NCBI GenBank assembly: GCA_017517385.1
Contig: JAFWZG010000054.1
Span: forward strand, 1 to 64,000
DNA from: Akkermansia sp.
Lineage (GTDB): Bacteria > Verrucomicrobiota > Verrucomicrobiia > Verrucomicrobiales > Akkermansiaceae
Direction of reading: 5' to 3'
Length of the DNA stretch: 64,000 nucleotides
Shown: positions 5,486 through 55,705 of the stretch, piece after piece
Numbering within the stretch: the stretch's first letter is position 1
Layout of the letters: each line of letters begins with the position of its first letter
Translations under genes and position numbers: made by a program
Notes under the pieces: model-generated
What the model saw: only the letters and a program-made list of their open reading frames with translations
Told to the model about the DNA's origin: nothing
Databases searched by the model: none

Positions 5486-5603
5486 GCGTGTCCGCTCTTT
5501 TCTTGTGAATTGGGCGAGACAAGCCCGGCGGGTGACATCCATCGCGCACCGACGTCGGATGAACGATACACAAAAACTTAATTTCCAAATCATCATTACG
5601 ACA

Positions 5604-6158
5604 ATGACAGATCTTACTCTTAAGGTCAGCAAGCGTGAGGTGCGTGGCACCGGTAAGCTCAATGCTCTGCGCGCTCAGGGTTACATGCCCGGCGTTGTAT
5701 ACGGTCCCGCCGTCAGCGAGAACATCAACATTCAGGTGAAGGTTTCTGACGTTCGCGTACTCCTTAACAGCGTGGATAGCGACAGCTTCCTCGTAAACCT
5801 TGATCTGGATGGCACCACCATCCTCGCCATGGTGAAGGACGTGCAGCGCAACTTCCTTACCGATAACACTATGCACATGGACTTCGAGGCAGTGACCCCC
5901 GACACCGTGGTGAAGACCAAGGTAGAGGTGAAGCTCGTAGGCACCCCCGTGGGTGTTGGCATGGGTGGTGTTGTTCACCAGATCGTACACGAGGTGCCCG
6001 TGAAGTGCGCAGTGAAGGATATCCCCTGCTGCATCACGGGTGACATCACCGCTGTGAAGCTGGGTGAGTCCTTCCGTCTGGGGCAGGTAGAACTGCCCGC
6101 CAACGTGGCTACTCCCTTCAACGGTACTGTGGTGCTTGCTTCCGTTGTGAAGCCCTAA
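5604..6158 (+). CDS. rplY: 50S ribosomal protein bL25 (Ctc/TL5 type, two-domain)
   Basis: This is a 184-residue bL25 of the long CTC/TL5 form. The N-terminal 5S-rRNA-binding domain starts LTLKVSKREVRGTGKLNALRAQG and contains MPGVVYGP, and the C-terminal beta domain contains DFEAV and VKTKVEVKLVG. It binds 5S rRNA in the large subunit. The frame is open from 5457, but family alignment begins at MTDLTLK, so the ATG at 5604 is the start. A strong intrinsic terminator follows 28 bp after the stop, so the gene looks monocistronic. The acidic tail seen in some homologues is absent. Confidence 0.93.
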   Translation: MTDLTLKVSKREVRGTGKLNALRAQGYMPGVVYGPAVSENINIQVKVSDVRVLLNSVDSDSFLVNLDLDGTTILAMVKDVQRNFLTDNTMHMDFEAVTPDTVVKTKVEVKLVGTPVGVGMGGVVHQIVHEVPVKCAVKDIPCCITGDITAVKLGESFRLGQVELPANVATPFNGTVVLASVVKP

Positions 6159-6186
6159 TCCGCATATCCATTTACTCTTTATGCAT

Positions 6187-6215
6187 GCCCCCATCTGCAC
6201 AAGATGGGGGCTTTT
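6187..6215 (+). terminator. intrinsic terminator after rplY
   Basis: A perfect 10-bp stem (GCCCCCATCT at 6187-6196 with AGATGGGGGC at 6202-6211), a 5-base loop, then TTTT. Confidence 0.9.
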
Positions 6216-6281
6216 ATATGCTCAGAGATTTGCTGCAAGCAGACGGGAGTCGACATGGAGTATATTCCTTTACCCGTTGAA

Positions 6282-6315
6282 AAAAGCGGGCAAACCCATC
6301 AAAACGGGTTTGCCC
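6282..6315 (-). terminator. intrinsic terminator after the LptF/LptG-type permease gene
   Basis: A perfect 10-bp stem GGGCAAACCC (6288-6297 and 6306-6315) with an 8-base loop. On the minus strand it is followed by GC and a run of six T at about 6280-6286. It lies just beyond the stop of the permease gene at 6342. Confidence 0.9.
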
Positions 6316-6341
6316 TGATGATATCAAAAGACTGAAACGCG

Positions 6342-7583
6342 TTAACCACGGTACTTGGCCTTAGCGTGCTGCCAGATGGCATAACCGGCGCAGATGACGT
6401 TCGGCAGCCAGAGCACGATGTATGGCGTAATGCCCCCGGACTTACGGGAAAGCTCACAGAATACAAGTGCCACGAAGTACACGGCTGCAACGATAATGCC
6501 TAGAGCGAAACCGGTGGACGTATCCTTACGGCGAGCCGTAATAGCCAAGGGCACACCGATAAGAGAGAAGACCAAGCAAGCACATGCGAATGACGCACGC
6601 TGAACGCCTTCAGTGCGGAAAGCACGTTCGTTCTTTTTAGACATCTCTGCGTGGTAGAACTCAGTATCACTTTTCGCGGCGTTCCACAGGTTAGCTGCGC
6701 AGGGGAAAGCTGGGGCAGCGCTAAGCTCAGCGGACTTGGAGTATTCAGCAATGGCCGTAGGTTCAACGTCTCGTACGATTTCCCAATGATCCAGCTCGGC
6801 GGCAATTTCAGCATTAGTGAAGCGATTAGGCTTCATCTTACGACGCGTGCGAATGGGAATGTGCACCTGCAAGGGCATTTCCTCAATCATGGGCATGTTC
6901 ACAGCATCATCCTGATTGTGAACGATTGTCACATTGTAAAGCACAAGGCTGAGCATGCGCGTACGGATATCAAACTCACCCACCAGAGCACTCCGAGCAT
7001 GCAGTGAAGAGAATCCGGACATACCGGTGCGGCTTGCACCCTCGTCATCCAAGGGATAGATAGCCACGCCTTTCAGCAGGTCACCATCACGCCCATCAAC
7101 GTATAGGCGCACACCGTCAAGCTTGGTTTCACCACCACCAGCAATCAGCAGATTACGGGGATTATCCATAGCCGCCTTCATTACCAGCTCACTCATGGCA
7201 TTCTTGCCCTTCGGTGCCACCTCTATATTAATATAATAACAGAGCAGGGATAGAGCAAGCCCCATTCCGATGGCCGGCATGCTCAGGCGCCAGAGGCTCA
7301 GGCCGGCCATTCGCATGGAGGTAAGCTCATTATCGGCAGCCAAGCGTCCATACACCAGAAGAACAGCCGTGAGGAAGCCCCAAGGTACGGAAAAGGTCAG
7401 CGAGAACGGAATCACCTGCACAATGAAATCAAACACGATGGAGGGAGGAGCCCCGCTTTCCACCAGCAATGAATGAAGCTCCTTGAACAACTGCCCCAGC
7501 AGCATGAGAAGGGTGAGGGACATCACCCCCAGAAAGGTCACGGCGATGAGCTGCCGTAAGATGTAGCGGTCTAAGGTTTTCAC
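6342..7583 (-). CDS. LptF/LptG family lipopolysaccharide export permease (YjgP/YjgQ)
   Basis: This 413-residue permease has the family layout: an N-terminal RYILRQL segment, three membrane helices, a large periplasmic beta-jellyroll region (about residues 100-310) and three C-terminal helices ending near IVLWLPNVICAGYA. Conserved segments include VPWGFLTAVLLVYGRLAADNEL and SLIGVPLAI. LptF/LptG pair with the LptB ATPase to pull lipopolysaccharide from the inner membrane. Only one of the two permeases is in the window, so F cannot be told from G. It follows hisB and hisH on the same strand, 26 bp after hisH, and ends with its own terminator. Confidence 0.88.
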   Translation of the reverse strand: MKTLDRYILRQLIAVTFLGVMSLTLLMLLGQLFKELHSLLVESGAPPSIVFDFIVQVIPFSLTFSVPWGFLTAVLLVYGRLAADNELTSMRMAGLSLWRLSMPAIGMGLALSLLCYYINIEVAPKGKNAMSELVMKAAMDNPRNLLIAGGGETKLDGVRLYVDGRDGDLLKGVAIYPLDDEGASRTGMSGFSSLHARSALVGEFDIRTRMLSLVLYNVTIVHNQDDAVNMPMIEEMPLQVHIPIRTRRKMKPNRFTNAEIAAELDHWEIVRDVEPTAIAEYSKSAELSAAPAFPCAANLWNAAKSDTEFYHAEMSKKNERAFRTEGVQRASFACACLVFSLIGVPLAITARRKDTSTGFALGIIVAAVYFVALVFCELSRKSGGITPYIVLWLPNVICAGYAIWQHAKAKYRG

Positions 7584-48425: not shown

Positions 48426-49496
48426 TTAGCGCTGCGGCTCAGGCCCGAGCAAGGCTTCCAGGAATTTGCGGAGCGGCTCGGAGTCATAGCAGTTTTGCTC
48501 TCTATGGCGAGAGGCTGCTGCCCGGAATGCCGTAAAATCAAACTGCGGGGCCAGATTAGTCATCAGCAGCAGGGAGGTGTCCTGCGTTTCTGCAATTTCT
48601 CGCAGCGGAGTGATTTCCCGGATAAGTTTTGCCATTTCGGCAGTTGCGGAGTCCGCTGAGGCTTTGTCGCTGATGCCGACCATGAGTTCCTGCATTCTCA
48701 CGAGATTTGCGATGATTTTCTGAAGAGCCGCCTGTTGTTCTTCTTCACTGTAGACCGGGCGCGATGCTGTAATATCTGCCCAGATTTCAGGCTGATATTT
48801 TTTGCCGTTCCTGATGAGGGTCATGGTGTAGACAAGGTAGCGGCGCTGCTCCTTCACTTCCAAGCGGTGGCTGCAGATGGTCCAGTCTGAGAAGGATTCT
48901 GAGGCGAGTTCTGTGACAATTCGGAAGCTTTCGCGAGAATCTGTCGTGTTGATAATCCACGCGGTATCAGCCGTCAGCCCGGGACCGCCATCAATGCCTT
49001 CCAGAGCTTCAGCTGGCCAGGTGGACAGGTTTTGTTCGGCCTCGTTTCTGAAGGCGGTAAGCATATCATCATCTATCTGTGTGGGGAGGAGGGCATCTTC
49101 CGGGCTGAAGTTCAGAAGCTCAGCCAGAGCAGGTACTCCGAAGAAGTGGGCGTCCTTCAGGCGGTTTATGTGGGATGCAAGCTGCATCTGCAGGATGTTA
49201 AGGGGGGTATCCGGTGCGGCGTCTGCCGACAGATGCTCGCGGAACAGCAGCTTGAGATTCACTACGGCATCAAGCGCGGAAGCGGAATCCTGCACGGCGG
49301 AGAGAATTCTCAGCCTTTCTGCTAGGTACACAGCTATTCGAGCGCTATCCGGTTCTTCTTCACCACGGATGTACGGCACGTCCGTATAAGTGCCGGGATC
49401 TGCAGAGTCAAAAGTATTTGTTTGTGCAGCATTCGGCTGCTCTGCATATGTAAATGTAGGAATAAGTATAAGCGTACAAGCGAGAGAGAGTTTCAT
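48426..49496 (-). CDS. secreted protein with SAD-type motifs, paralogue of the 52.5-kb gene
   Basis: This exported protein of about 356 residues has a signal peptide (MKLSLACTLILIPTFTYA) and an alpha-helical body. The motif DSASALDAVVNLKLLF (N-terminal third) and the motif SDKASADSATAEMAKLIREI (C-terminal third) resemble each other and three copies in the protein at 52535. Both proteins end with a similar segment, here NCYDSEPLRKFLEALLG. I do not recognise a named family. The frame is open to 49580, but promoter and signal peptide place the start at 49496. It is divergent from the dynamin-like gene. Confidence 0.75.
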   Translation of the reverse strand: MKLSLACTLILIPTFTYAEQPNAAQTNTFDSADPGTYTDVPYIRGEEEPDSARIAVYLAERLRILSAVQDSASALDAVVNLKLLFREHLSADAAPDTPLNILQMQLASHINRLKDAHFFGVPALAELLNFSPEDALLPTQIDDDMLTAFRNEAEQNLSTWPAEALEGIDGGPGLTADTAWIINTTDSRESFRIVTELASESFSDWTICSHRLEVKEQRRYLVYTMTLIRNGKKYQPEIWADITASRPVYSEEEQQAALQKIIANLVRMQELMVGISDKASADSATAEMAKLIREITPLREIAETQDTSLLLMTNLAPQFDFTAFRAAASRHREQNCYDSEPLRKFLEALLGPEPQR

Positions 49497-49506
49497 TCTG
49501 CCATGA

Positions 49507-49535
49507 ATGTTACAGAGGTAACTCAGCAGAGTCAA
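49507..49535 (-). promoter_or_regulatory. promoter of the SAD-motif protein gene
   Basis: On the minus strand TTGACT (49530-49535), 17 bp, TAACAT (49507-49512), then 10 bp to the ATG at 49496. Confidence 0.55.
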
Positions 49536-49607
49536 GAAGAAAAAGAGGTTTTGACTTTTCTGAGAGTTATTCTTGTTCATGTGAACGCAATTCGATAATT
49601 TTTGTGG

Positions 49608-49636
49608 TGGACAACTCGGGGTTGAGCGCTTATAAT
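49608..49636 (+). promoter_or_regulatory. promoter of the dynamin-like gene
   Basis: TGGACA (49608-49613), 17 bp, consensus TATAAT (49631-49636), then 10 bp to the ATG at 49647. The earlier in-frame ATG at 49635 lies inside the -10 box. Confidence 0.6.
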
Positions 49637-49646
49637 GTGCTCGGAT

Positions 49647-51290
49647 ATGCTGAGCCGTTGTTTCAGAACAGAAGAGAGCCGCGCACGCTATTGGGTGCAG
49701 CAGGCTGTTGAACTGTGCTCAGGTATTGAGGATGAGTCTCTGAGCGAATATGTGGAGCCCGTAATGGCTGCAGAAGCAGAGCTTGACAGAGACCGCCGTA
49801 TCATCGTGATAGGTGGTGAGCGTTGCGGGAAATCTTCTCTTCTGGCGGCAATCGCCGGATACCCGCTGATTGCTCGGGTACCGTTGCAAGATGATTACGT
49901 GTGCTGGCGTTATCGCAGCAAGGATGGTGAATCCACCTGTTCCCGTTTCATCCCTCTGGAGAATCTTGAAGGGCTGGAGTTAGTGGACACTGTATCCTGT
50001 GCGGATGAAGGGGCTGCTGCCACCGTGCGGCAGTTGCTGAGCCGGGCAGATGTGGTGATTGCAGTGGTGGATGGGCGCAATTACGAGGCCTCACCCGTCT
50101 GGCCTCTGTTGGCATCCCTAAGTGATGTGCGCAAGGCTGCGACCTTGGTAGCCGTCACGTATACAGAGACTTTCGGTGCTGAAGTGGCATTGAACCTGAA
50201 GGAATCCCTCCGCGAGTTCTGCAAGAGCCAGGCGGGCGTGCCTCTGCCTATCTGTTTTGTCAATCCTAATAGCTCCAGAGAGAATCTGGAGACTTTCATT
50301 CAGCTGATTCAGGAAGCTCTTGCTCAGCCCGTTGGTGTGCGCAGTGCCATTCGTCACCTCGTAGAGTGTGGTAAAGAGCTTACTCGCAAGCAGGCTTTTG
50401 TGCTCAATGCGAGAGACCGAGTGGCTAGAACGGATAGTGGATTCCTTGCCGGTATCGAGCAGGAAATTGATTACTTCCTTGCCCGCCAGAGGGAAGGGGT
50501 TACCAGTTGTACGGAGGCTTATGCTGAGGCTTTCATGCGTGCGCTTCCGACAACTGTGAGCAAGCTGCAGCGGACGTTGGGGTGGTTCCTCTCTCCTGTA
50601 ACGCTGATGCGATTGGAGTTTCTGGGGGCCGGTACGGAAAAACACTTGTACCGTACCTTGCGAATGGAGGCTCTTACTCAGCAGGAGGTGAGCGATGATA
50701 ACTTTGTGCTTTCTTGCATGAGCCACTGGCGTAGTGTGCGCCCTCGCATGAAAAAGACGCTTGAGTGTGAAATCGGCGAGTTCCCGGATGTTGCACTTCG
50801 CGAGGAGTTGGAGCAACTCCGTTTGCGGATGGGCCGCGAGCTTTATAAAGTCTTTACAGATATCAAGCTGCGCAGCAGTTACAGCCGTGTGTTCAATGCT
50901 CAGGTTGGGTGGATGCGTGCGTGCTGCGGTCTTATCTGTCTGTTCTTGGTTCTTGCCGGCATTTTGGGACTGCTGGGGCTTGTGATGATGGCGTTTATGA
51001 CGCTGGCGATTTCCGGTGCTGTGTGGGTGCTCGGCTCGCTTGCTCATTGTATAGCGGTGCGGAGAATGTGCGGGGATATTGTCCAGCTTTCCTTGGAATT
51101 GCATGAGCGCCTGAGTGCTTCTATCGGTGATGAAGTGGAAGGGCTTCTCGTGTCACGAGTGGCCGCATACCGCCGCCTTTATACGGCGCCCCGTGAGAAA
51201 GTGGCGCGCCACGAGGCCAATCTCAAGCCTCTTCAGGATAAACATAAGGACATTAATATGCAGTTGAATGCTGCAGCGCCGAGAATGTGA
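49647..51290 (+). CDS. dynamin-like GTPase with C-terminal membrane hairpin
   Basis: This P-loop GTPase has about 547 residues. The P-loop is IGGERCGKSSLL, about 55-65 residues in, followed by the switch-type VDTVSCADEG (G3-like) and VAVTYTETF in place of a normal N/TKxD motif. The middle is a long helical region. A hydrophobic hairpin (VGWMRACCGLICLFLVLAGILGLL and a second helix, given by start residues) lies near residues 420-470, and a coiled-coil tail of about 75 residues ends the protein. This order matches bacterial dynamin-like proteins that remodel membranes. The G4 motif is weak, so nucleotide specificity is uncertain. Confidence 0.75.
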   Translation: MLSRCFRTEESRARYWVQQAVELCSGIEDESLSEYVEPVMAAEAELDRDRRIIVIGGERCGKSSLLAAIAGYPLIARVPLQDDYVCWRYRSKDGESTCSRFIPLENLEGLELVDTVSCADEGAAATVRQLLSRADVVIAVVDGRNYEASPVWPLLASLSDVRKAATLVAVTYTETFGAEVALNLKESLREFCKSQAGVPLPICFVNPNSSRENLETFIQLIQEALAQPVGVRSAIRHLVECGKELTRKQAFVLNARDRVARTDSGFLAGIEQEIDYFLARQREGVTSCTEAYAEAFMRALPTTVSKLQRTLGWFLSPVTLMRLEFLGAGTEKHLYRTLRMEALTQQEVSDDNFVLSCMSHWRSVRPRMKKTLECEIGEFPDVALREELEQLRLRMGRELYKVFTDIKLRSSYSRVFNAQVGWMRACCGLICLFLVLAGILGLLGLVMMAFMTLAISGAVWVLGSLAHCIAVRRMCGDIVQLSLELHERLSASIGDEVEGLLVSRVAAYRRLYTAPREKVARHEANLKPLQDKHKDINMQLNAAAPRM

Positions 51291-51301
51291 TTGCTTATGG
51301 C

Positions 51302-51330
51302 TTGCATGTGCCGGCATAATCTGCTAGAAT
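51302..51330 (+). promoter_or_regulatory. promoter of the ankyrin-like membrane protein gene
   Basis: TTGCAT (51302-51307), 17 bp, TAGAAT (51325-51330), then 10 bp to the ATG at 51341. Confidence 0.55.
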
Positions 51331-51340
51331 ATATGCAGTC

Positions 51341-52513
51341 ATGGAATATGTTGAACGCGGCACGGATGGAGTTTACAGAAATACCCCTGTGAGGGTCATG
51401 TTCTGTGTGATGGCTTATGTGATGATGGCCATGTTTTCCCTCCTGTTCATGCTGGGACTACTGGGATTATCCGTTAGTCATGTGCCGCACTATAGCTGGT
51501 TGCTGAGGGGGGATGATTGTTATGCGCAGGGGTGGACGCCGGCGCAGCGGGAGACTCTGGCGGCATTCGCTCATGACCTGAGATACAACAATGAACCCTT
51601 GCTGCGAGCTCCTGTTTATCGTGCTCAATGCTTGCAAGGGGGGCAGACGCGCCCTCATCCGGGTACGTGGGAATACGCCTTATTGAAAGATGCCGCTGTA
51701 ATGCCGCTGGCCGCTGAGGCTGATGCTGAGTTTCGAGAGTTCGTACGGAATGGCAGCCTGACTACCGTCACCTCCGAGAGAGCATATGGCTCGTTGGCTC
51801 ATGTAGCGGTGAGGTTGGGGCATCTGGAGGCGGCACGCATTTTCTTGGAAAGAGGATGTGCGGCACAAAACACTTTGGATGAACACGGGGAGAGCCTTCT
51901 TACGCTACTCCTCGCTAACTCAGCTTCTCGTTCTCAGGAAGAGGTGGACGCTTTTGCGGAGTGGCTGAAGAGCAGGGGCGAGACCCTGAAGATGGATGCC
52001 GCGGCACAGCGTTGTATTCTTATTGCATTTGACAGCGTAGGTATGCTGCAGAAGATGATGGAATACGGCTTGATGCCTGAGCTGTGGGAAGATAATGGTA
52101 AGATAAAGCTACCGTTCATTCATCTGGTTAATCATCATACCGGGATACTTCCTCTTAACTATCTTTTGAACGAAGGAATCATTGCAGCTGATGACCGCCG
52201 GGGTGAGAAGACCTATTTACAGGCAGCCATGGAGAGTGATGAAGTGAGTGAAAAATTGATTCTTAGCCTTCTTAGGCATGGGGCTCATTCGGATACGGTT
52301 CCGGAGTCCGGAGATGCAGAGCATACTCCGCTGAATATGTTGCTGAACCGCCTTGCTTTAGCTGAGACTCCTCAGCCGCAGCTCCTCTCCGTTCTCCGTT
52401 TATTGCTTCAACATGGTGCTGAACTTCAGAGTTTACCACAAACTTGGACAAACGAAAAAAATCATCAGCAAGCTGTAATCATTATTAGCGAGAAGTCCTC
52501 GCATTCCAACTAA
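51341..52513 (+). CDS. membrane-anchored ankyrin-repeat-like protein
   Basis: This 390-residue protein has a single N-terminal membrane helix (about residues 18-45). The body is helical with ankyrin-like units: GSLAHVAVRLGHLEAARIFLERGC, SLLTLLLANSASRSQEE, TYLQAAMESDEVSEKLILSLLRHGA and TPLNMLLNRLALAETPQPQLLSVLRLLLQHGAEL (each a partial LHxAxxxGHxxxxxxLL pattern). Such repeats mediate protein binding; the partner is unknown. It follows the dynamin-like gene by 50 bp but has its own promoter. Confidence 0.7.
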   Translation: MEYVERGTDGVYRNTPVRVMFCVMAYVMMAMFSLLFMLGLLGLSVSHVPHYSWLLRGDDCYAQGWTPAQRETLAAFAHDLRYNNEPLLRAPVYRAQCLQGGQTRPHPGTWEYALLKDAAVMPLAAEADAEFREFVRNGSLTTVTSERAYGSLAHVAVRLGHLEAARIFLERGCAAQNTLDEHGESLLTLLLANSASRSQEEVDAFAEWLKSRGETLKMDAAAQRCILIAFDSVGMLQKMMEYGLMPELWEDNGKIKLPFIHLVNHHTGILPLNYLLNEGIIAADDRRGEKTYLQAAMESDEVSEKLILSLLRHGAHSDTVPESGDAEHTPLNMLLNRLALAETPQPQLLSVLRLLLQHGAELQSLPQTWTNEKNHQQAVIIISEKSSHSN

Positions 52514-52534
52514 ATAACTTGATATCTGGGCATT

Positions 52535-53527
52535 ATGAAAACCTCCTTTTCTCTCATCCCTCTTTTTCTCGGGGCCTCTCTTTCGGCGCAGGAACTTACT
52601 GCAGAGCCCTCGCAGGAGTCTCTTAGCCCCATTCTCATGTTTGTGGCAGATCGTCCCAGTGCGGATGCCGCCGCTCCTCGGATTCGCGCTCTGATTGAAC
52701 GCGTGGGTGCAGAGCGAGTATATGTGGATAGCTATGATTTGCAGCTTCTGCGCAGCACGGGATGTTTTGGCTCTGCTGACTTGCAGGCCGTCATGAACGG
52801 CTTCATAACCGGTCTCTCAAATCAGGAGGTGGCTGAGCTGCGCCCTTTCCTCGCAGTGTGCTCAGATATGTGCCTGGCCATGAATGACCTGACAGAAACC
52901 TTGAAAAATGTGCATAATAAGCGCTCGGCTGATGAGGCGGCTGAGATGGCGGATACTTTCCGTGCTTACATGACCTCCTGCGGTGAGCGTGTGGCCGCTC
53001 TGCCTCAACCGAGCACGGAATCCGCTCGCATGGAGTTAAACATGAAGTACAGGCTGGCGATTCGCCGCAGCACTTCTTCTTTGCTTCAGGTATGGGGCGA
53101 GTTGGCACTGCGCTCTCCTGAATATTACAAATCAGAGCGGCTCGTGGAGGGGCTCATGGTGGTGCGAGATGTGCTGGAAAACATGAACATGCAGGTGGAC
53201 CCCTCTGTTATCCCCGGTGTGATGAGGGCCGCCGGAAGCATGCAGAGCCTCATGCAGCAGTGGATAGCTGTCATCTCACTTGTGCGTGATAAGGACAGTG
53301 CGGATGCCGCTGCGGTGCAGCTGGCCCGCCTGCGCCGTGAGCTTGCCTCCGTCGCCATGCATGCGGGCGTGAGCCGTAGCTATGAAGAGGATTTATTTTT
53401 GTTCCATCCCGCACTTGAGGTAAAAGCGCATGTTATTGACAGAGTGGCTCATTATCTTCAGGAAGAAGTAACGCCTGCCTATTATGGTTCCGAAAGCCTG
53501 CGCAAGGTGCTCGAACATGAGGATTGA
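52535..53527 (+). CDS. secreted SAD-motif repeat protein
   Basis: This 330-residue exported protein has a signal peptide (to about SLSA). Three copies of a motif occur at residues 37-57 (VADRPSADAAAPRIRALIERV, key: DRPSADAAA), 126-146 (NKRSADEAAEMADTF) and 250-270 (RDKDSADAAAVQLARLRREL), each about 100 residues apart. The body is predicted to be helical. The end segment YYGSESLRKVLE resembles that of the paralogue at 48426. No enzyme motif is visible. It lies 21 bp after the ankyrin-like gene and 54 bp before dacA. Confidence 0.75.
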   Translation: MKTSFSLIPLFLGASLSAQELTAEPSQESLSPILMFVADRPSADAAAPRIRALIERVGAERVYVDSYDLQLLRSTGCFGSADLQAVMNGFITGLSNQEVAELRPFLAVCSDMCLAMNDLTETLKNVHNKRSADEAAEMADTFRAYMTSCGERVAALPQPSTESARMELNMKYRLAIRRSTSSLLQVWGELALRSPEYYKSERLVEGLMVVRDVLENMNMQVDPSVIPGVMRAAGSMQSLMQQWIAVISLVRDKDSADAAAVQLARLRRELASVAMHAGVSRSYEEDLFLFHPALEVKAHVIDRVAHYLQEEVTPAYYGSESLRKVLEHED

Positions 53528-53545: not shown

Positions 53546-53574
53546 TTGCCATAGGCTAGGAAAAAGAGTAAGAT
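53546..53574 (+). promoter_or_regulatory. promoter of dacA, near-leaderless
   Basis: TTGCCA (53546-53551), 17 bp, TAAGAT (53569-53574), then 7 bp to the ATG at 53582. An upstream in-frame ATG at 53573 overlaps the -10 box. Confidence 0.6.
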
Positions 53575-53581
53575 GACGCGC

Positions 53582-54376
53582 ATGGATTTCCCGTTCATAC
53601 TGAGAGCTGTCTTTGAGATAGTTGTTCTCTGGATAATATTTTACCAAATATACCGCACCTTCAAGGATTCTCGCGCGGCGGCCATTATGGCTGGTCTGGT
53701 GTTCATCATAGTCCTTGCAGCCGTGCTTCTGGAGCTTACGCATGCAGCCGTGCTGCAGCAGATTGCCGGCTCGTTCCTCGGGCCCGGTACACTTCTGCTT
53801 ATTCTTTTTATCCTTTTCCATCCGGAGTTGAGAACTGCTCTGGCCAAGCTGGGCGCCAACCGTGTGCTGGGTAGGCTCTGGGACCGCGAGAAAAATGAAG
53901 ACTTTATTTCCTGCGTCTGTGACTCCGTATCCTTCCTTGTGAGCAAGCGCTATGGCGCCCTCATTGCCATCTGCAGGAATAATAAGCTCTCTGAGTATGT
54001 AAAAACGGGTACTGAACTGGATTCTATCTGCAGCCGAGAGCTCATAGGTACCATCTTCATGCCCAAGACGATGCTGCATGACGGTGCAGTCATTATCAAT
54101 AATGAACGAATTGTAGCTGCTGCGTGCATCTTGCCTGTTTCCAACCGTGAGTTGAAGGACCGCTCTCTTGGTCTGCGCCACCGTGCCGGCATTGGTCTGG
54201 CAGAGGCCTCGGATGCAGTGGTTATCATCGTTTCTGAGGAAACGGGCTCTGTATCTCTCGTGGTGGGTAATGTGGTGCAGCGTGATATTTCTGTGCAGAT
54301 GTTAGCTGCTCGATTAACTGAACTTATATATAGCCATGTCTCTACTGAGAAAAATACGCGGAGTGTTAAATCCTGA
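53582..54376 (+). CDS. dacA: diadenylate cyclase, CdaA type
   Basis: This 264-residue c-di-AMP synthase has three N-terminal membrane helices (about residues 9-80) and a DAC domain. The catalytic motifs are HDGAVII (Asp-Gly-Ala at 167-169) and LGLRHRAGIG (Arg-His-Arg at 199-201), and the C-terminal part has DAVVIIVSEETGSVSLV. CdaA proteins condense two ATP to c-di-AMP for osmotic and envelope control. The start at 53582 follows from the promoter position. It overlaps the CdaR-like gene by 41 bp. Confidence 0.95.
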   Translation: MDFPFILRAVFEIVVLWIIFYQIYRTFKDSRAAAIMAGLVFIIVLAAVLLELTHAAVLQQIAGSFLGPGTLLLILFILFHPELRTALAKLGANRVLGRLWDREKNEDFISCVCDSVSFLVSKRYGALIAICRNNKLSEYVKTGTELDSICSRELIGTIFMPKTMLHDGAVIINNERIVAAACILPVSNRELKDRSLGLRHRAGIGLAEASDAVVIIVSEETGSVSLVVGNVVQRDISVQMLAARLTELIYSHVSTEKNTRSVKS

Positions 54377-55237: not shown

Positions 55238-55705
55238 TTATCTTGCTCCGGCTTGGCGGAGTACCTCTGCTGTCTCCCGGTGACGGTCTCCCAGAGCCTT
55301 GCGCAGAGCGGTTTCGCCATCTTCGTCCTCGGCGTTCACATCTGCTCCGGCGGAGATGAGTGAGCGCACTACGGCTGTGTGGCCTTCGTCTGCTGCCATC
55401 ATGAGGGCTGTTTCCGCGTCTTCATTACGCAGGTTCACGTTGGCTCCGGCTGCAATCAGATTGTTTACCGCGCGGAGATTACCGTCATCGGCAGCCTCCA
55501 TCAGTGCCGTCTCTCCGTCGTCATCCGTTGCATTGATGTCAAGGCCTCCGGCGAGCGCTTGTTGCAGCTGTTCTGCTCCGGCTCTGGCCGCGCGAAGAAT
55601 GACGCGCTGCGGGGCGTTGTAGGGGGTATCCGCCTGAACATAAGCTCCTGTCCACACTAATGACAGTACGGCGCCCAACATAATATGAGTGATTTTAGTT
55701 TTCAT
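55238..55705 (-). CDS. secreted ankyrin-repeat protein
   Basis: This 155-residue protein has a signal peptide and about three and a half ankyrin repeats. They read in order AGGLDINATDDDGETALMEAADDGNL, AAGANVNLRNEDAETALMMAADEGHT and SAGADVNAEDEDGETALRKALGDRHR (key: GETALMxAAxxGH). Ankyrin repeats bind other proteins; the target is not evident. The start is preceded by AAGGAG about 11 bp upstream, one of the few clear Shine-Dalgarno sequences in the window. It converges on bioD across a terminator. Confidence 0.9.
   Translation of the reverse strand: MKTKITHIMLGAVLSLVWTGAYVQADTPYNAPQRVILRAARAGAEQLQQALAGGLDINATDDDGETALMEAADDGNLRAVNNLIAAGANVNLRNEDAETALMMAADEGHTAVVRSLISAGADVNAEDEDGETALRKALGDRHRETAEVLRQAGAR

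Follow-up and report, generated by a model that had tools for sequence, protein, structure and literature searches.

According to PMC10104851, the functions with which known bacterial dynamin-like proteins have been associated are the stabilisation, fusion and fission of membranes, the release of vesicles, and cytokinesis. BDLP of Nostoc, LeoA, the DLP1/2 proteins of C. jejuni and IniA, as well as mitofusin, have a G domain between helical segments, a long helical bundle and a C-terminal hydrophobic hairpin, and the same arrangement is predicted for a protein encoded in a 64,000-nucleotide stretch of an Akkermansia sp. genome (assembly GCA_017517385.1, contig JAFWZG010000054.1, positions 1 to 64,000; hereafter, the window). 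An earlier note on this DNA had assigned the protein to a cluster of four genes that could form a membrane-remodelling or vesicle system, and all four were found where that note had placed them. Gene A, on the minus strand (48429–49496), encodes an exported protein with two copies of a unit that we denote SAD after its motif. Divergently, on the plus strand, lie the genes for the dynamin-like (mitofusin/BDLP-fold) P-loop membrane protein (49647–51290), for ANK, a membrane-anchored ankyrin-like protein (51341–52513), and for D, an exported protein with three SAD units (52535–53527), separated by short gaps of 50 and 21 bases. The genome (2.66 Mb) is closest, among named relatives, to Akkermansia sp. 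bins recovered from the gut of roe deer, sheep, water buffalo, goat and cattle, which places the window in that clade. The parts of this locus are real and uncharacterised, and there is no demonstrated system; rather than a single machine, the locus is probably a loose grouping of envelope genes that are separate from one another, comprising a dynamin-like core protein, an exported pair of D and ANK, and a separate A.

Across 76 Akkermansia genomes (species), the dynamin-like gene was found in 75, and it is weakly detectable in other Akkermansiaceae. ANK, by contrast, is confined to nine species, namely this one and its eight closest relatives by identity of the dynamin-like protein (63–74%). 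D occurs in 18 species, the nine with ANK and nine more, forming nested clades, and close relatives of A occur in five species, all of which carry ANK. The order dynamin-like gene–ANK–D is kept in six species (G000, G059, G060, G064, G022 and G075), in all of which the next gene directly after D encodes a putative CdaA-type diadenylate cyclase, named from its sequence (in the window, 53573–54376 on the plus strand, 45 bases 3' of D). In the other three ANK species (G074, G052 and G055), a gene of the MFS type adjoins ANK–D in place of the dynamin-like gene, which is located elsewhere. In the remaining species, the neighbours of the dynamin-like gene vary and include, for example, rarA; a same-strand neighbour of about 453 residues that recurs in several species, considered as a candidate functional partner, was rejected because by sequence it is RarA itself. 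A lies near ANK–D in G000, G074 and G055, in which its position can be read despite the contig ends. The co-occurrence expected of a single system was therefore only partly recovered: the four genes largely scatter, whereas D keeps an ankyrin-like neighbour in 15 of the 18 species that carry it, ANK being directly upstream in 9 of 9 and an ankyrin-like gene directly downstream in 6. This is the best-supported link at the locus and its sole persistent pairing. A general linkage of SAD and ankyrin-like genes beyond D was considered and rejected (ankyrin-like genes make up 3 of the 71 neighbours of other SAD genes and 5 of the 295 genes taken as background; Fisher p = 0.19).

Signal-peptide-like N-termini are present on A, D and the downstream ankyrin-like proteins, and ANK carries an anchor. 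As judged from sequence, all of these probably belong to the envelope and face the periplasm, whereas the G domain of the dynamin-like protein should be cytoplasmic. Because of the export-type N-termini, the repeat and the persistent adjacency, we propose that D and the ankyrin-like protein form an exported pair, in which the three SAD units of D would make up a bundle or rod in the periplasm, and the ankyrin domain would probably serve D as a partner or as a surface to dock on. A is a further member of the large SAD family that stands divergently beside this pair. The dynamin-like protein is a genus-wide core protein. Its C-terminal hairpin most likely holds it in the inner membrane, and it would bind nucleotide through an intact P-loop and may remodel or stabilise the membrane, with the G domain and the helical bundle mediating its assembly; this membrane role is suggested because known bacterial dynamin-like proteins have such roles in the account cited above. 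Several observations weigh against this interpretation. The six-species gene order with its short gaps looks operon-like, so that the genes may be functionally linked to some extent within that clade. The direction of the ANK anchor is ambiguous from charge, and the ankyrin part could be cytoplasmic. Finally, the two groups of ankyrin-like neighbours of D may belong to different families outside the ankyrin repeats (hhalign probability 16%).

A single system of four genes, in which a membrane-bound dynamin-like protein works with A, ANK and D as exported partners, would be in keeping with the dynamin fold of the former and with the same-strand succession through CdaA that six species preserve. 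Nevertheless, such a system is highly unlikely, given that the dynamin-like gene is nearly universal in the genus and mostly located elsewhere, that most species carrying it have no close relatives of ANK, D or A, these three being confined to nested clades, and that it stands apart from ANK–D in three of the nine ANK species. Moreover, the ANK species are exactly the closest relatives by identity of the dynamin-like protein, so that common ancestry explains the joint occurrence; and, if the G domain is cytoplasmic and the other proteins are periplasmic, as is probable, a direct complex of all four would have to bridge the inner membrane. Rather improbable, too, is a link restricted to the six species, whereby D–ANK and CdaA would have captured the core dynamin-like gene in a common operon, coupling an inner-membrane protein to the envelope or turgor state. 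The operon-like spacing, a strong promoter match solely in front of the dynamin-like gene and the placement of CdaA immediately 3' of D in these six species are consistent with this scenario. However, a weaker promoter-like element is also found 5' of CdaA (53546), synteny among close relatives is weak evidence, and G074, G052 and G055 keep ANK–D without an adjoining dynamin-like gene. The loose grouping of separate envelope genes is the probable interpretation.

The probable start of the dynamin-like protein was corrected from 49635 to 49647, the fifth residue of the 551-residue open frame, where the methionine is invariant in 29 orthologues. The AlphaFold (AF2) model (pLDDT 89.7) predicts a mitofusin/bacterial-dynamin fold with a C-terminal membrane hairpin, in agreement with the earlier note. 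In this model, the elements of the dynamin fold, that is, a G domain, a helical bundle and a hydrophobic membrane element, are all present: the G domain spans residues ~50–230 (49782–50324), with the P-loop GGERCGKS at residue 60, and the hairpin corresponds to a two-pass hydrophobic segment at residues ~422–475 (50898–51059; hydropathy maximum 2.93), a C-terminal hydrophobic segment being found in 69 of 69 homologues examined. Foldseek placed BDLP first (E = 4.0e-10), followed by LeoA, the C. jejuni DLP pair and IniA (to E = 2e-7), and VIA-align superimposed the model on mitofusin-1 with Z = 20.6 (298 residues, 4.2 A). The TM-scores are low (best 0.38, to BDLP), as expected when domains are hinged differently. 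Compared with the known bacterial dynamin-like proteins and mitofusin, identity is about 11–15%, and of the motifs G1, G3 and G4 only the first is canonical. The G1 motif GxxxxGKS/T is kept, all of the 14 commonest variants among the 69 homologues fitting GxxxxGKS. In contrast, G3 reads DTVS here instead of DxxG, with DTIG kept in 10 of the 69 homologues including that of the A. muciniphila-like G040, and G4 reads TYTE instead of T/NKxD, with THTD or THAE in many homologues and no lysine in the variants shown. With these two motifs degenerate, the protein may hydrolyse nucleotide slowly or not at all. The Pfam family Dynamin_N is not reached at its cut-off (15.7 bits vs. 27), and 12 of the 29 orthologues match it at E up to 0.1 (best E = 4.8e-4). 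With G3 and G4, two motifs that define an active dynamin-type GTPase are lost; the protein looks like a diverged member of the dynamin-like group and may work like one, but we do not claim it to be an active GTPase. Furthermore, whereas the C. jejuni DLP proteins act as a pair, the Akkermansia protein is a single copy. A literature search on Akkermansia dynamin-like and Verrucomicrobia bacterial dynamin-like proteins found nothing on it, and dynamin is unmentioned in the V. spinosum essential-genome paper. In one single-contig genome (G048:C1:3032877-3034464), the gene is in two pieces. Whether the gene is disrupted there or the sequence contains an error is relevant to its dispensability.

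The promoter in front of the dynamin-like gene, TGGACA-17-TATAAT (49608–49636, plus strand), matches the consensus at 11 of 12 positions and ends 10 bases 5' of the probable start. Among 56 orthologues, 33 have a TAnnnT box ending 10–11 bases 5' of the start (TGGACA with TATAAT in the examples listed), and only 5 have a Shine-Dalgarno-like sequence. These observations suggest that the mRNA is probably near-leaderless, which would be ordinary for the genus because 10% of the mapped A. muciniphila start sites are leaderless (PMC4782308). The promoter-like element of A (49535–49507, minus strand) matches the consensus at 9 of 12 positions. In the window, −10-like boxes end 6–10 bases 5' of the likely starts of the dynamin-like gene (49647), A (49496), TatA (48163) and CdaA (53582), as in near-leaderless mRNAs; among the 55 window genes counted, there was no general excess of the −10-like box.

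The motif that the earlier note had singled out in A and D is real, and an iterated profile search showed that it is part of a helical unit of ~95 residues, in which a helix is followed by V-x-D-K-x-S-A-D-A-A-A starting the next helix, by a helical stretch and by [FY]-[FY]-G-S-x-x-L starting the last helix. A hidden Markov model (HMM) built from 16 single-unit paralogues only, with A and D excluded, found D at E = 6.7e-31 and A at E = 5.1e-13, against 0.12 for the best of 1,000 shuffled copies; hence, the repeat is not a product of chance. The two proteins are only weakly similar in a direct BLASTP comparison (E = 7e-4), and the C-terminal segment that they had been said to share, which indeed exists, is simply the end of the SAD unit (FYGS-x-x-L and the last helix) that recurs in the repeats. 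The unit is present in 23 copies in this genome, 41 in G056, 24 in G076 and 4 in the A. muciniphila-like G040. With 23 copies in the genome, it is unremarkable that two SAD genes are only a few genes apart. Of 387 genomes sampled from the phylum, 32 contain the unit, 23 of these within Akkermansia; outside the genus, single copies are found in a few other Akkermansiaceae and in more distant Verrucomicrobiota, and several of the relatives from outside the genus have lipobox-like N-termini. Searches of Pfam, NCBIfam and PADLOC yielded no family for A or D, no Pfam family matched the SAD units consistently, and a PDB sequence search with the units returned designed or generic helical proteins only. 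The SAD units are a lineage expansion without a Pfam or NCBIfam family. Elsewhere on the contig of the window, two overlapping tandem single-unit SAD genes were observed (L176, G000:C91:138000-150000, at 5567–6486), and giant proteins with six units each occur in G050 and G063 (L274, a 990-residue open reading frame, and L269, one of 992 residues).

Protein D, which has 18 full-length relatives and a signal-peptide-like N-terminus, contains SADAAA at residue 42, SADEAA at 131 and SADAAA at 255; the three copies noticed previously are therefore present, although their spacings are 89 and 124 residues and not exactly 100. Unit 1 is short (52604–52795; FGS at 78; HMM E = 9e-5), and units 2 (52862–53155; YKS at 198; E = 9e-25) and 3 (53237–53512; YGS at 317; E = 4e-26) follow. 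In the AF2 model of D, made from the 18 relatives (pLDDT 88.1, pTM 0.80), the three SAD motifs lie in the first turn of helices 40–57, 129–155 and 253–277, and the GS motifs immediately precede helices 81–87, 201–216 and 320–327. As both signatures are at helix starts in all three repeats, the repeat is structural, and a chance helical pattern was not borne out. In protein A, the open frame extends to 49580, and the start is probably residue 29 of that frame (49496, MKLSLACTLILIPTFTYA), where a signal-peptide-like N-terminus begins. Its two motifs, SALDA at 101 and SADSA at 308, agree with those reported before and belong to unit 1 (residues 80–156, SALDA...FFGV, 49113–49343; domain E = 2.4e-10 with the family HMM against the window open reading frames) and unit 2 (residues 287–374, SADSA...YDS, 48459–48722; domain E = 5.1e-17). 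Between them lies a 'GGPG...AW...WxDITA..VY' domain (48741–48998, bounds approximate), a conserved block in a 12-member alignment; no Pfam family was matched by more than 2 of the 12 members, and a PDB sequence search with the A family gave nothing useful. The same block, GGPGF-x-x-E-x-AW ... EQWxDITA-x-x-VY, stands between SAD units in several proteins (e.g. L057), with no known family found.

The best structural neighbour of the second SAD unit of D is the ligand-binding domain of fungal HsbA/MP1: for residues 96–229, the best four entries comprise two of the MP1 ligand-binding domain (Z = 11.0 over 129 residues at 3.1 A, and Z = 10.5), a laccase small subunit (9.3) and g7941 (8.8). This result might suggest that the unit is a lipid- or hydrophobic-ligand-binding helical bundle of that kind, but the chance of this appears small, given that the Z-scores are within the range of common helical bundles, below the caution level of the tool for these (about 13), and that Foldseek with the D model gave nothing lower than E = 0.26. 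There is also no sequence relation between the two that we could find: the HsbA profile PF12296 has no match in this genome at E = 10. A bolder scenario, in which SAD is an undescribed envelope family, grown to dozens of copies in herbivore-gut Akkermansia, that binds a hydrophobic or host- or diet-derived ligand, with D and its ankyrin-like neighbour as a two-part receptor or scaffold, operon-coupled in one clade to a degenerate mitofusin-like protein, is very unlikely.

ANK has a single hydrophobic segment (residues 15–49) that constitutes an N-terminal anchor, and its description as a membrane-anchored ankyrin-like protein holds. In the single sequence, its repeats fall under the Pfam cut-off; however, a profile of nine orthologues has ankyrin as its best PDB match (E = 3.4e-18) and also matches DARPins. 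Unlike typical ankyrin-repeat proteins, ANK combines degenerate repeats with the membrane anchor and its own N-terminal region of ~90 residues. The PADLOC profiles of anti-phage defence proteins (2023 library), applied to the four proteins, gave one weak match only (E = 0.007), over the ankyrin stretch of ANK. Near the cluster, a small exported ankyrin-repeat protein is encoded at 55238–55705 on the minus strand (Pfam Ank_2, E = 4.7e-31), and it stays near the cluster in several relatives. Unassigned genes are inserted in the clusters of G055 and G075 (L118, 7783–8784; L112, 5480–6184), one with hydrophobic segments and one of low complexity.

Three leads from this locus seem most useful: the degenerate dynamin-like protein found throughout the genus, the SAD family, which is undescribed, and the D–ankyrin pair. 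Akkermansia is a much-studied gut genus, and yet we found no paper on its near-universal protein of mitofusin/bacterial-dynamin fold with degenerate G3 and G4. Similarly, neither Pfam nor NCBIfam has a family for the SAD unit even though one species carries 41 copies; we infer that these units serve in the envelope as modules for binding or scaffolding and that they expanded in Akkermansia of herbivore guts. The cultivable A. muciniphila has the dynamin-like protein and, in this search, only three SAD proteins, so that both are testable there.

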